From contig SKMG01000105.1 of NCBI GenBank assembly GCA_007121175.1, positions 1 through 7,170 of the forward strand: DNA of 7,170 bases, written 5' to 3'. This document shows, one piece after another, positions 2,884 to 7,170 of this stretch. Numbering within the stretch: the first letter of the stretch is position 1; each line of letters starts with the position of its first letter. Source of the DNA: Trueperaceae bacterium (GTDB lineage: Bacteria; Deinococcota; Deinococci; Deinococcales; Trueperaceae). A program made the position numbers and the translations under genes. Under the pieces are notes generated by a model, which made no database searches, was not told the DNA's origin, and saw only the letters and a list, made by a program, of their open reading frames with translations.

Positions 2884-3279
2884 TCATCCCACCAGCACCG
2901 TCGGCACCCCGCCGAGCACAGTGCCGCGCGCGTTGCCGTTGTTCTGCCGGGTCGCGTCGCCGAGCCGCACCACGTTGCCGCCCTCGGCGAACACGGTCGT
3001 GCTGAAGCCGACGTCGAAATGGACCGCACCCTTGGTGGTGCCGGAGGTCACTCCGCCCGCCGAACCGGCCTCGTTGCCGCTGGTGCTCCGGATGCGGCTG
3101 TGGCTGGTGACGACCGGCTGGCCGCCGACCAGCACCGAGTTGGCGGTGCCGGTCGCCTCGGCGAGCTGACCGACGTTCGGGTACGGGAGCGGCACCGTCG
3201 ACGTGCCCACCGGCGTGAGGCACACGTCGGGGAACGCGAAGCAGATGCCCTGGCCCTTGACGGTGATCGGCATGCCCAT
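2884..3279 (-). CDS. DUF4150 PAAR-like spike-tip protein
   Basis: A 131-residue protein of the DUF4150 (Tox-PAAR-like) type, expected to cap the trimeric spike and sharpen its point, and possibly to anchor cargo. Seen in order: FPDVCLTPVG at residues 16-25, VPLPYPNVGQLAEATGTANSV, VLVGGQPVV, a SRIRSTSGNEAGSAGGVTSG stretch, and a C-terminal repeat-like part ending GNVVRLGDATRQNNGN. FPDVC-TP-G, PYPN and S-S-G-E-G-GGV-SG are the family's usual markers. It has no C-terminal toxin domain: the protein stops right after the tip fold, so any effector would be separate. The start is ATG 3279 because AGGAG stands five bases upstream. ATG 3273 would be too far, and a longer start at 3312 lacks support and adds non-family residues. 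The stop is nine bases before the gp25-like gene, whose ribosome site lies over it. In eCIS operons this position is normally held by a short PAAR protein (Afp10-like). Confidence 0.88.
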   Translation of the reverse strand: MGMPITVKGQGICFAFPDVCLTPVGTSTVPLPYPNVGQLAEATGTANSVLVGGQPVVTSHSRIRSTSGNEAGSAGGVTSGTTKGAVHFDVGFSTTVFAEGGNVVRLGDATRQNNGNARGTVLGGVPTVLVG

Positions 3280-3394: not shown

Positions 3395-4819
3395 TCACGA
3401 GAACGCCACCCGTACGAGGCGTCCCAACCCGACTGCCTCGAGCCCGGTCCAGACACCGCGCCACACCGCGTAGTAGCGCTCGCTCGCCTTGTCGAACACC
3501 AGCGTGTCGAGGCGCAGCGGCACCGAAAGGGTGCTGGTGAGCGCGTCCGGGTCGTCGGTAGCGCGGATCGTGAGGCGCATCTGCGGCGCGGGCGGTACCT
3601 GCAAGGCGGTGGGCGGGCCGCTGCGGGTCTCGCTGCCGCCGGCGCCGTCGTCGTACTCGGCGCTGGCGCACAGTTCGATCGCGTCGGCCTGCAGGTGCTC
3701 GAAGACCGGCCGCCCGCCGGCGTAGAGCCCGCCGTTACAGAAGCGGTTGTCGAACGCCTCAGGCAGCGCCATGGTGTCGGGGTCGAAGGTGTTCAGGTCG
3801 TCGCCGGCGTAGCCCTCCCGGGTGCCGTCGTCGCCGCCGTTGGCCGCCCGGTTCTGCCAGCCGAAGGTGACCGGGGTGGTGCTCGACCACGGCACCTTCG
3901 ACGCCATCGACGCGCCCTGGAAGTGGGTGAGCGCTCCGGAGGCGTCGAACACGGCCCTCATGGTGGCGCCGCCGATGGTCACGCGCTCCTCCCAGACGCC
4001 GCCCAGCGGACCGGGCTCCGGTGGGGCGGGCCGGCCCAGGATCACCACGTCGGCGTAGGGCTTGTAGGCGGCGAGGTCGTGCTCGTAGCGGATCGGGTCG
4101 CGGGCGTCAGGAGCGAGGCTGCTGCTCCCCTCGTGCAGACGCACCCACTGGTACTCGACCGTCGCCCCCGCCGCGCCGCTCAGAGCCAGCAGCGCCCGTT
4201 CGTCGGCCAGCGCCGGCGGCCAGCTGCCGGTGCGCTGGAACTCCGTGAACGCCGGCGTCAGCTCGGCAGTGCCGGTCAGGAGGCGCTGCCCCGATTCCGC
4301 CTCGAGGTAGATCCCGCCGACGCTGGCGCCGGCGCCGCCCGTGACGCGGGCGCGGACGCGCAGGGTGAAAGGTCGGCCACCCGCGGGCCCCGCGAGCGCC
4401 ACGAGCTGCGTGACGGGACCGACCCCCTGCACGCGCATCACCGAGGTTGCGCTGTGATGACTGATGGTGGTGGCCGGATCGGCACTGGTCCAGGCCGCTA
4501 CCGGGGTGATCACGGTACCGTCGGGGTCTACCTGCGCGCCCGCGCGGAAGTCGCCGTTGCGAACGAGGTCGAAGAAGACGTCCTGCTCGAAGATCGGCAG
4601 CTGCACCGGCGCCAGCGAAGCAGACGCACCGGCGGCAGCGGACGCACCACCGGCGGCAGACGCCCCGCCAGCAGACGCACCACCGGCGGCGTACGTGCCC
4701 TTGACGATGCCGGTCAGCACCCGCTGGGCGCCGTGCGGCGCGCCGAGGGGCCCCGCGCCCGCGACGCGGTAGCCGACCAGCACGCGGCTCGGTAGCGTGG
4801 GGTGCGGCACGCTCTCCAT
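3395..4819 (-). CDS. DUF2169-family protein with an inserted CBM-like jelly-roll domain
   Basis: A 474-residue protein. DUF2169 landmarks appear at both ends: VLTGIVKGTYA (residues 34-44); then RYEHDLAAYKPYADVVILGR (244-263), the family's 'K-P-tDV-v-G' motif; FGWQNRAANGG (319-329); LPEAFDNRFCNGG (352-364); and LSVPLRLDTLVFD...VWRGVW (431-457). Two insertions break the N-terminal part. One is a Gly/Ala/Ser repeat linker (about 44-69). The other is about 150 residues (85-232), beginning LVRNGDF and ending VEYQWVRLHEG, the layout of a carbohydrate-binding-module-type beta sandwich. No signal peptide or membrane segment is seen. ATG 4819 has no good Shine-Dalgarno but overlaps the spike gene's stop (TGATG), so it is probably translationally coupled; the open frame reaching back to 5464 is a shadow of genes 2 and 3. 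DUF2169 proteins act as effector adaptors or chaperones in some type VI loci, often beside PAAR-like genes. A spike-tip adaptor role here is inference. Confidence 0.8.
   Translation of the reverse strand: MESVPHPTLPSRVLVGYRVAGAGPLGAPHGAQRVLTGIVKGTYAAGGASAGGASAAGGASAAAGASASLAPVQLPIFEQDVFFDLVRNGDFRAGAQVDPDGTVITPVAAWTSADPATTISHHSATSVMRVQGVGPVTQLVALAGPAGGRPFTLRVRARVTGGAGASVGGIYLEAESGQRLLTGTAELTPAFTEFQRTGSWPPALADERALLALSGAAGATVEYQWVRLHEGSSSLAPDARDPIRYEHDLAAYKPYADVVILGRPAPPEPGPLGGVWEERVTIGGATMRAVFDASGALTHFQGASMASKVPWSSTTPVTFGWQNRAANGGDDGTREGYAGDDLNTFDPDTMALPEAFDNRFCNGGLYAGGRPVFEHLQADAIELCASAEYDDGAGGSETRSGPPTALQVPPAPQMRLTIRATDDPDALTSTLSVPLRLDTLVFDKASERYYAVWRGVWTGLEAVGLGRLVRVAFS
4124..4567 (-). other. 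CBM-like jelly-roll insertion inside the DUF2169 protein
   Basis: This covers residues about 85-232 of the DUF2169 protein; boundaries are approximate. The order LVRNGDF, then W-T with Asp/Ala turns, SVMRVQG, TQLVAL, PFTLRVRARV, GGIYLEAESG, FTEFQRTGSW, ALLALSG and VEYQWVRLHEG is that of many CBM4/9-type or tail-associated beta-sandwich domains. Those typically open with 'N-L-(V)-NGDF' and close with a strand ending 'v-L-E'. The assignment rests on this pattern, not on a search, and says nothing sure about a ligand. Confidence 0.6.
4623..4691 (-). repeat. In-frame 18-bp tandem repeat encoding AAGGAS units
   Basis: On the plus strand the units start GACGCACC...GGCGG at 4623, 4641, 4659 and 4674. 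Three are 18 bp and one is 15 bp, with a few substitutions. On the coding strand they read as near-hexapeptides AAGGAS, AGGAS, AAGGAS and AAAGAS. They lie in the DUF2169 protein between the KGTYA motif and the strand PVQLPIFEQD, where relatives carry only a short loop. It is probably a flexible, length-variable linker; copy number changes in multiples of three bases would keep the frame. Confidence 0.85.
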
Positions 4820-5310
4820 CAGTTCAGCTCGATCCTGGGGCCGATGAGCTTCAAGCCCTGAGCGTCGAGCTCGATGCTGGTGCCAGCGCCGAAGGCGATC
4901 GTGATCCGCTCGGCCTCGAGGGTGATGCTGGGCGTGTCGCCGCGGAAGCGCAGCGAGATCCGCTCGCCGCCGCCGGCGTCCTCGAACTCCAGCACGTGCC
5001 CGCTCACCGTCTCGATGGTGCGGCGGCTGGGCTCGGCGTGCGGCGGCTGCTGGCGCCCGTTCCACAGCGACCCGAGCACGTACGGGAAGCGCAGGTCGCC
5101 GTGCTCGAACGCCACGAGCACCTCGTCGTCGACCTCCGGCAGGAAGAAGAAGCCGCGCTCGGGCCCGCTCATGGGGGCAGCGATGCGCGCCCAGGTGCTG
5201 CGCGGCTCGCTCTCGGCCATCCACGGGAACGACACCCGGATCCGCCCCAGCGCCTCCGGGTCGTTCACGTCGACCACCAGGCCGATGACCACGCCGTTCA
5301 CGGATCGCAT
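4819..5310 (-). CDS. gp5/gpV-like OB-fold spike protein (split VgrG C-terminal part)
   Basis: A 163-residue protein that should trimerise under the gp27-like hub to form the membrane-piercing spike. Residues about 5-90 are the OB fold: GLVVDVNDPEALGRIRVSFP, then WARIAAP, the conserved FFFLPEVDDEVLVAFEHGD, and PYVLGSLWNG. Residues 98-112 (TIETVSGHVLEFED) match the post-OB segment of gp5/VgrG proteins. The last 45 residues are short alternating strands (ISLRFRG, SITLEAERITIAF, SIELDAQGLKLIG) that should make a short beta-helix. The frame stays open upstream to about 5442, but the start is set at ATG 5310. GGAGGGAG lies six bases upstream of it, the upstream translation is Arg/His-rich junk, and family homology begins at MRSVNGVV. 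It overlaps the hub gene by 13 bases, and its stop overlaps the next ATG (TGATG). The short helix fits a particle whose tip is a separate PAAR-like protein. Confidence 0.9.
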   Translation of the reverse strand: MRSVNGVVIGLVVDVNDPEALGRIRVSFPWMAESEPRSTWARIAAPMSGPERGFFFLPEVDDEVLVAFEHGDLRFPYVLGSLWNGRQQPPHAEPSRRTIETVSGHVLEFEDAGGGERISLRFRGDTPSITLEAERITIAFGAGTSIELDAQGLKLIGPRIELN

Positions 5311-6476
5311 GGGCTGCTCCCTCCGCCGTGCCGCAACGACTCCAGCCGCGCCTCGAAGCTGGTGGTGTAGCCGCCGTCGCCGATGGTGTGGGTGCTGCCG
5401 GTGACGAGGTAGCGCCCGCTGAAGCGCGCGCCGAGCTTGCACAGGTAGACCGGCCGGCCGGCACGGAGCTCGGGCAGGCCGACGACGCTGCCGCTGCCGG
5501 TCACCATCTCCTTGGCGCGATGCACGAGGTGGTCGAGCGCCTTCTGCTCGGCGTCGCGCTCATCCGCCACCGGCTCGTCCGAGATGACGATCTCCGAGCC
5601 GGCCAGCGCGGCATCGACCGCCGCCAATGCCTGCGCGTCGGGCAGACCGTCGAATGGCAGGTCGTCGCGGGTGGCGACGCCGACGATCTCCTCGCGCTTG
5701 CGGGCGTCCCAACCGCGCACGGTCACCTTGGAGACCTGTCCGGCGGTGCGCAACGTCGGTTTGAAGCCGATCAGCGACTGCCCCCACGCCAGCTTGAACA
5801 CGGCCGGCACGCCGCGCTCGGAGGGGTGGAAGTGCAGCTTCGAGACGCTGCGGCCGGCCTCCTCGACGTCCTCTAGGTAGAGGTCGTAGCCGTTGTGGCG
5901 CGCGCGCTCGAGCAGGTGCACGATCGGGTACTCGTTCTCGATCAGCACGTACTCCTGTGGCGTCTCCAGCTGGGCGTTGGCCGGGCGCGTCTCGAGCTGG
6001 AGGTTGAGCTCGGGTCGCTCCTGCGCCAGGGCGTCGACGAGCGCCCGCGCGATCTGGGTGTCGGTCTTGCCCTCGAACACCCGCGTCTCCTGCTTGAAGT
6101 GCAGCCGGTAGAGTGAATTGAGCGCCCGCACCAGCAGCGTCGGCTGCCCAGCAGCGGGGAAGTCCGGCGCCAGCGACACCACCGTGCCGCGCAGCATCAG
6201 CGTCAGCCCGCCCTTGTCCAAGTAGCCCAGCGACAGTTCGAGCTGAGCGCCGGGGTCGAACAGGTCGTTCTCGAGGTACTTGAAGTCGCGGCGCTCGGCG
6301 TCCCAGTTGTTGAGCGTGAGCTCGCAAGCGTCGATGCTCCCGAGGCCGTCGCGGTAGCTCACGTTGATCACGTCGCGCAGCACCTCGCGATCCAGACTGC
6401 GCCCCTTGAGCCGCACCTCGAAGGCGGGCACGAAGAAGTCGTACTGCGAGGTGATGGCGACGGGCTGCTCGAGCAT
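5298..6476 (-). CDS. Phage late control D / gp27-like baseplate hub protein
   Basis: A 392-residue protein of the phage GPD/gp27 type, the N-terminal half of VgrG and Afp8 proteins. As a trimer it should form the central hub that receives the inner tube above and the spike below. Features seen: an early strand pair (PAFEVRLKGRSLD), the hallmark YRDGLGSIDACELTLNNWD near residues 42-60, a long stretch YLDKGGLTLMLRGTVVSLAPDF, and the second-domain segment FEGKTDTQIARALVDALA around residue 140. A C-terminal segment carries LPELRAGRPVYL and FSGRYLVTGSTHTI, typical of the family. ATG 6476 is preceded by AAGGAG eight bases upstream, overlapping the stop of the LysM gene. The final 13 bases overlap the following spike gene. 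Unlike many VgrG proteins, it ends after the gp27-like part, with a short Gly/Ser-rich tail, and the OB-fold spike is a separate gene. Confidence 0.92.
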   Translation of the reverse strand: MLEQPVAITSQYDFFVPAFEVRLKGRSLDREVLRDVINVSYRDGLGSIDACELTLNNWDAERRDFKYLENDLFDPGAQLELSLGYLDKGGLTLMLRGTVVSLAPDFPAAGQPTLLVRALNSLYRLHFKQETRVFEGKTDTQIARALVDALAQERPELNLQLETRPANAQLETPQEYVLIENEYPIVHLLERARHNGYDLYLEDVEEAGRSVSKLHFHPSERGVPAVFKLAWGQSLIGFKPTLRTAGQVSKVTVRGWDARKREEIVGVATRDDLPFDGLPDAQALAAVDAALAGSEIVISDEPVADERDAEQKALDHLVHRAKEMVTGSGSVVGLPELRAGRPVYLCKLGARFSGRYLVTGSTHTIGDGGYTTSFEARLESLRHGGGSSPCDP

Positions 6477-6489
6477 CGCAGGCGCTCCT

Positions 6490-7170
6490 TCAGCCGCGCA
6501 GCGGCGGCAGCCGCAGCACGGTGCCGGGCTGCAGCTCGCGTGGCTGCAGCAGCCCGTTGGCGTCGGCGATCAGGCGCCACCGGGCGGGGTCGTGGTAGGC
6601 GACGTAGGCGATGTGCGGCAGCGTCTCGCCGCGCTGCACGACGTGAACGCGGGTGTGGTCGGCGGTCTGCAGGTTCAGCTGGTGCAGCTGCGTCTCGAGC
6701 GTGACGTACTCGCGCAGCGTCAGCGCCAGCGTTGCGCGCAGCGGCACGCCGTCGGGACTGAACAGTGTGAACTGCTGCTGGATGCTCTCGACGATGCACT
6801 CGAAGGCCTTGCGGCTGCCGGAGACCTTCCCCGCCTGGTTGACCAGGCCGGGGAAGTCCTGGCCCCAGCCGAAGCGGCAGCGCGGCGGCGCGTGCTGCTG
6901 GCCCGACATCTTCACCAGCGCGTAGAACTCGTTGGTGAGCCCGGTCACGGGCACGGCGCCGGCGCCGGTACCGCCTTCGGTGCTGTCGAAGAAGAGCTCG
7001 AGCGTCACGCGCTCGTTCTGACCGCGCACGAACTGCAGGATCGGGCTGTCGAGGCCGGGGATGGCGATCTCGGCGATCTGTGCTCCCTTGCTCAGCGACA
7101 GCTCAGCAGGGTTGAACTGCACCTCGAGGCGCTGCTCCACGCGCCCCTCGGCGTCGAGCCGCTCGACGTA
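6490..7170 (-). CDS. Afp7-like CIS tube/hub adaptor protein with C-terminal LysM (5' partial)
   Basis: The reading frame is open to the window edge, so the true start lies upstream. A GTG at 7140 would give 216 residues, but the upstream codons read YVERLDAEGR and run naturally into the family motif (V-QFNP-ELS), so that GTG is probably internal and perhaps 10-20 residues are missing. The visible 226 residues hold two parts. The first is a tube-initiator-like domain with VQFNPAELSLSKGAQ, a PGLDSPILQFVRGQNE stretch and the strand LELFFDST. The second is a LysM domain at about residues 175-226 (VVQRGETLPHIA...DPARWRLIADANG...PGTVLRLP). In eCIS particles this family (Afp7/PVC7, compare T4 gp53/gp48-54 region proteins) links the inner tube to the spike hub; the LysM fold is structural there and need not bind peptidoglycan. 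The stop codon shares a base with the ribosome site of the next gene. The family assignment is confident; the exact role is inferred from homologues. Confidence 0.9.
   Translation of the reverse strand, partial: YVERLDAEGRVEQRLEVQFNPAELSLSKGAQIAEIAIPGLDSPILQFVRGQNERVTLELFFDSTEGGTGAGAVPVTGLTNEFYALVKMSGQQHAPPRCRFGWGQDFPGLVNQAGKVSGSRKAFECIVESIQQQFTLFSPDGVPLRATLALTLREYVTLETQLHQLNLQTADHTRVHVVQRGETLPHIAYVAYHDPARWRLIADANGLLQPRELQPGTVLRLPPLRG

Follow-up and report, generated by a model that had tools for sequence, protein, structure and literature searches.

The window, by which we mean the whole stretch of DNA analysed, is one entire contig of 7170 bases from a 2.55-Mb genome that is 78% complete and split into 464 contigs. 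The genes reported here are all encoded on the minus strand; from high to low coordinates they begin with a CIS_tube protein bearing LysM (Afp7-like, 6490-7170, incomplete at the contig end; PF19266, E 1.5e-30, and PF01476), followed by a gpD-like hub (5298-6476), which matches PF05954 at E 0.0013, below the cut-off of that model, and PHROG 52, 'tail protein', at E 2.5e-21. A spike of 163 residues with a gpV/Phage_base_V OB domain comes next (4819-5310; PF04717, E 5.1e-29), and then a DUF2169-family gene with an inserted module (3395-4819, 474 residues), the subject of this report. Its start shares one base with the stop codon of the spike gene, an overlap that suggests coupled translation. 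Downstream are a PIPY (DUF4150, Tox-PAAR-like) spike-tip protein of 131 residues with the motif PLPY (2884-3279; PF13665, E 7e-34), a gp25-like baseplate wedge protein (2473-2874; PF04965, E 1.4e-28) and a baseplate J-like, Afp11-like protein of 715 residues (249-2396; PF04865, E 2.4e-19; TIGR02243, 383.3 bits).

Landmarks of DUF2169 occur on both sides of the insertion, in residues 1-80 (as far as PIFEQD) and 244-474 (from RYEHDLA). Alignments and models place the first DUF2169 strands (VLVGYR..VLTGIVKGTYA) in residues 1-45 (4685-4819, minus strand). A Gly/Ala/Ser stretch follows at residues 46-68 (4616-4684), modelled with low confidence, and then a short core segment, residues 69-80 (LAPVQLPIFEQD, 4580-4615), which is aligned in uninserted relatives also. 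The inserted module, residues about 82-232 (LVRNGDF...YQWVRLHEG, 4124-4576), is a predicted CBM4/CBM16-type beta-sandwich according to the model, structure matches, alignment and profile alignment. A low-confidence linker in the model (residues 233-243, 4091-4123) leads to the remaining core, residues 244-474 and the stop codon (RYEHDLAAYKP...GW..R...LP..FDNRF.NG...LDT...WRG.W, 3395-4090), delimited by alignments and the profile match of the joined flanks. Values of pLDDT below 50 occur in the model of the window protein at residues 48-64, 233-254 and 308-373.

An eCIS-like operon

Baseplate J, CIS_tube/LysM, gp25, spike and PAAR-like tip are all present in the window, and the earlier note's description of the operon as eCIS-like is sound on that basis. 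The PIPY tip and gp25 genes follow the DUF2169 gene in all five loci compared, three of them inserted (the window, L001 and L008) and two uninserted (L002 and L023). Baseplate J then follows by Pfam in four of the five; in L008 a J-like frame is truncated at the edge of its contig and matches nothing in Pfam. Upstream, the gpV spike gene precedes the DUF2169 gene in the window, L001 and L023, the three loci scanned on that side. The contig of L023 carries two sheaths, along with two gp19 tubes, next to this same operon, and a sheath was found in three of five genomes. Neither component lies on the window's contig, and a search for a sheath gene in the window's own genome, 78% complete, found none. 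TssM (PF06761) was searched as a single marker in six draft genomes and found in none of them, while the same search recovered it from the E. coli control. On this evidence the machine is best read as a contractile injection system of the eCIS type, though its own sheath was not found: sheaths and gp19 tubes accompany the same operon in L023, and a T6SS is rejected as the setting since none of the six drafts matched the one marker TssM. A mis-binned contig is not favoured, since its base composition agrees with its own genome: GC content is 0.718, where the 17 readable contigs among 20 taken average 0.712, and the tetranucleotide correlation is 0.986.

Several further features of these operons were observed. 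The sheath protein at 6329-8410 of L023 (minus strand) matches a carboxypeptidase-regulatory-like domain over residues 345-418, just below cut-off; additional modules may thus occur elsewhere on the particle as well. The gpV-type spikes match DUF6484 weakly and below cut-off (window 4819-5310, E 0.0046; L001 2169-2708, 5.3e-4; L023 3262-3795, 4.8e-4); in the available text of PMC13373197, DUF6484 is TvpC, a spike mimic of class II Tvp systems of T6SS. Baseplate J of L001, an Oscillochloris draft, is represented by two overlapping ORFs in different frames (4979-7125), both matching Baseplate_J, possibly through an assembly error, and the J-like ORF of the uninserted L002 (1924-4329) encodes 801 residues, compared to 715 in the window. 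Farther downstream, L001 (7205-12109) and L002 (4348-9028) encode a Tail_P2_I protein with NHL repeats and, judged by eye, a long protein with collagen-like Gly-x-y stretches.

Family assignment and the inserted module

Model PF09937 scores the whole window protein at 21.7 bits, where the Pfam cut-off is 25. The earlier note expected a match once the flanks were joined without the module; a match is present, but at 22.6 bits it is still below cut-off. The assignment to DUF2169 is carried by relatives and by fold. All 46 rows of the family alignment, the window included, match PF09937 at E of 0.1 or better (best 4.2e-15), and the public record of one relative, P0033, already bears the name 'DUF2169 domain-containing protein'. 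The predicted fold of the window protein agrees with that of 8vth, a solved DUF2169 structure, and the gene adjoins those for the DUF4150 tip and the spike. On these relatives and this predicted fold, identification as a DUF2169 protein stands. A search of the window's own genome with PF09937 returned nothing at E of 0.001 or better, a PDB search with the single window sequence gave no match, and NCBIfam, PADLOC and PHROGs assigned the protein to no family. An ordinary DUF2169 protein, L009, scores 335 bits against the 21.7 of the window protein, so the window family is a remote branch, and assigning it a chaperone task means extrapolating far. That ordinary gene (68-1270 of its contig, minus strand) lies beside a stretch that by eye resembles a VgrG; its genome, one of the Oscillochloris phylum set, gave no TssM match.

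The distance from D80 to E246 in the 46-row alignment takes two ranges with no intermediates: 144-185 residues in 34 rows versus 9-21 in 12. The module is thus common to 33 of the 45 aligned relatives of the window protein and absent from the other 12. An inserted domain was correctly recognised in the earlier note, as was the unbroken course of usual members, of which these 12 are natural examples. Its single insertion at residues 44-235 is to be divided: the module itself stands, at about 82-232, and the Gly/Ala/Ser repeat does not belong to it. That stretch, an in-frame imperfect tandem repeat (4619-4687), expands a separate hairpin loop, across core residues 69-80 from the module, and is found only in the window protein, which rules it out as a part of the module. 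The loop is 30 residues long in the window, compared to 12-20 in the other 44 readable rows; row L008 ends early there and is unreadable.

A structure search with the predicted model matched residues 85-232 to CBM4/CBM16 structures, in keeping with the jelly-roll, carbohydrate-binding-like fold first suggested for it, and an uninserted relative was modelled as a complete DUF2169 fold without the module. On these predicted structures, the reading of residues 85-232 as an ordinary portion of the DUF2169 fold is rejected. Carbohydrate-binding is in the name of many of the nearest solved folds, which include CBM4, CBM16, CBM22, CBM29 and a hyaluronan-binding module. The predicted fold resembles the glycanase modules 2y64, 2zey and 1gui and the hyaluronan-binding 4d0q over the whole module, at 15-18% identity in the quoted structural alignments. 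Cry and Vip3 proteins also contribute domains to the same list, and the fold by itself is therefore no proof of sugar binding. A family profile of the module shows distant sequence similarity to CBM4/CBM16 modules, and a Pfam scan of the module alone returned no family. CBM_4_9 (PF02018) matches three of the 46 rows weakly, at best with E 0.0099, and the window row is not among them. The module differs from the glycanase CBMs in that the window protein does not reach CBM_4_9 and in that it is inserted inside a host fold.

Mean identity over 561 pairs is 40% in the module and 45% in the core; module and core evolve at similar rates, and 18 module columns lie under 0.6 bits. The conserved columns look like fold core, and among the 34 inserted rows they include no conserved set of extra aromatics. 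The Trp in DPWTNYFAQ of 1gui is one we take to be a sugar-stacking residue; at its position, columns 178-181, aromatics occur in 0-3 of the 34 rows.

Relatives and distribution

Three protein searches, two of them seeded with inserted members, each scored about 8000 candidates, so the ratio of 34 inserted to 12 uninserted rows is not a population frequency. P0002, a near copy of the window protein, and the fragments P0011 and P0046 were left out of the alignment. A tree was built from 253 core columns, with module and hairpin excluded. On it, the module switches between present and absent at least 5 times, with starred branches forcing at least 3 of these switches; shuffles average about 10.7. 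The window falls in an all-inserted group of seven rows (99/98), and the uninserted P0042 is sister to two inserted rows (96/90). L011, L008, P0047 and P0038 form long branches. Because site and fold of the module are identical throughout, we infer one origin followed by repeated loss or exchange, in a direction that the tree does not give; its root was not inferred, which leaves gain and loss of the module indistinguishable.

The family is rare in the genomes surveyed. In the window's own phylum it was found in 2 of 111 genomes, the window's and G107, the latter with a module-like stretch only, and a 61-genome survey returned the same two. The phylum of G111 gave 3 of 400 genomes, namely G111 and G502, with inserted eCIS-type members, and G303, with the ordinary DUF2169 protein L009; surveys of the classes of G111 and G502 gave the same 2 genomes of the same 158. 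The class of G112 gave 5 of 298: uninserted eCIS-type members in G112 and G517, and matches in G650, G681 and G731 that cover only profile positions 52-207. A tblastn search against plasmids and phages found no match, and 63 stretches of viral_contigs held no relatives. Separately, a genome of the window's family contains an ORF of 658 residues with long hydrophobic stretches (L004, 907-2883, plus strand), 54 positions of which align to the module profile (E 0.001).

Proposed roles of core and module

DUF2169 has been described as a T6SS accessory. The closest known proteins are the DUF2169/TvpA tip chaperones of T6SS (VP1398, V. xiamenensis 8vth, and Tvp classes I-III), where the spike is VgrG. 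As far as the available text of PMC11883445 goes, DUF2169 genes co-occur there with VgrG and DUF4150, a DUF2169 protein is required for export of the T6SS spike, the protein has been modelled gripping the PIPY patch with a protruding loop, and Phe209 and Trp213 of that loop in V. parahaemolyticus are needed for binding. The window system differs in its eCIS-like operon, its separate gpD-like and gpV-like proteins and the lack of a TssM match in the six genomes tested; the protein differs in its remote PF09937 score and in carrying a CBM-type module in another loop, where the multidomain T6SS forms described in that text mostly carry a C-terminal pentapeptide-repeat domain. A survey of PAAR proteins, in its accessible portion, places DUF4150 mainly with T6SS (PMC8651086). 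The term eCIS does not occur in PMC13373197. The literature searched, with subscription journals mostly outside it and some sources available in part, yielded no DUF2169 in an eCIS, no CBM-type insert in DUF2169 and nothing joining DUF2169 with carbohydrate binding; nor did the literature searched join a Chloroflexi contractile injection system, carbohydrate binding and the baseplate.

A putative counterpart of the PIPY-binding 'thumb' loop of 8vth lies at residues about 320-363 (3731-3862), located by aligning the profile to 8vth residues 191-275. The module sits in a different loop, before a stretch that aligns weakly with 8vth residues 61-106. At least one Phe, Tyr or Trp is kept in the thumb segment of 45 of the 46 rows. 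In the column that likely corresponds to Phe210 of 8vth, Phe or Tyr occurs in 32 of 46 rows; that column is a gap in the window row, although Y337 and F345 lie close to it, and the key contact is therefore not established for the window protein. All five tips carry P[LIV]PY: PLPY in the window and L001, with Leu where the published motif has Ile or Val, PIPY in L002, and PVPY in L008 and L023. Given a thumb-loop counterpart and such tips, the chaperone task may, with reservation, be the same as in T6SS.

We propose, at a little short of an even chance, that the DUF2169-family protein is an assembly chaperone of the PIPY-type tip in an eCIS-like system and that the module is an optional docking arm; the gap at the likely thumb Phe column lowers our confidence. 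By analogy with the T6SS work, the core would grasp the P(I/V/L)PY patch of the tip with a flexible thumb loop and would keep the tip mountable on the spike. The module would contact another part of the assembling particle, or cargo, rather than sugar, tying the chaperoned tip to the right place, and could be missing where such a contact is unneeded. The uninserted L011 (in L023) and P0032 (near-identical to the gene of L002) sit in alike operons, which makes the module unneeded there for loading the tip. Release of the chaperone in the T6SS manner is an assumption, given that a membrane complex is lacking from the released eCIS particle.

Against docking stand the CBM-type fold neighbours of the module and a precedent in AlgoCIS, and both feed the rather unlikely alternative that the module is a true sugar binder, by which a chaperone staying on the released particle as a tip cap would attach it to glycans on the target or on the producer's own envelope. 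Alg11 of AlgoCIS presumably corresponds to Afp11, the baseplate J protein. In the available text of PMC8894135, this baseplate protein contributes two modules, CBM1 and CBM2, to a cage round the tip, CBM1 is compared with TmCBM27, and the authors hypothesise attachment. The likeness lies in having CBM-type modules close to a PAAR-like eCIS tip; the window module, unlike those of AlgoCIS, is part of a DUF2169 protein and matches CBM4/CBM16. Sugar binding also gains from the weak CBM_4_9 matches and from the 50 viral proteins listed for the model, several of which are named tail or tail-fibre. The conserved columns speak the other way, as no aromatic is conserved beyond those read as fold core and the stacking position of 1gui is almost devoid of them, and the Cry and Vip3 domains weaken an argument from fold. 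T6SS DUF2169 accessories are, moreover, reported as not secreted in the text available from PMC13373197. We consider it quite unlikely that the chaperone remains attached after release and caps the tip as a glycan binder; if true, an assembly chaperone would have turned into a receptor-binding part, with a swappable aiming module at the very tip. From the conserved columns, which look like fold core without conserved extra aromatics, we infer that docking fits better than a glycan- or surface-binding role.

It is improbable that the module serves only to pad out the baseplate cavity where the tip is small, in the manner of TvpB, the pentapeptide-repeat partner of class III T6SS. Accessories of effector-free tips are proposed to occupy that cavity, in the same partly available source (PMC13373197), and the window tip is effector-free at 131 residues; however, tips of uninserted relatives are effector-free too and of similar size (135 residues in L002, and in L023 131 in the reading used or 156 as the longest ORF), and conservation of the module comes close to that of the core. 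That conservation, with its 18 columns under 0.6 bits, weighs against a neutral insertion without a role of its own, kept because harmless, which we regard as improbable too, even though it would suit a module that comes and goes both across the tree and within one operon slot.

That DUF2169 and DUF4150 are paired in an eCIS-like operon with sheaths suggests a wider sharing of tip chaperoning than of the T6SS membrane complex. Inserted and uninserted forms in one operon slot provide a ready comparison for the role of a module near the spike tip, and the same natural pairs bear on whether the tip chaperone of an eCIS stays or leaves.
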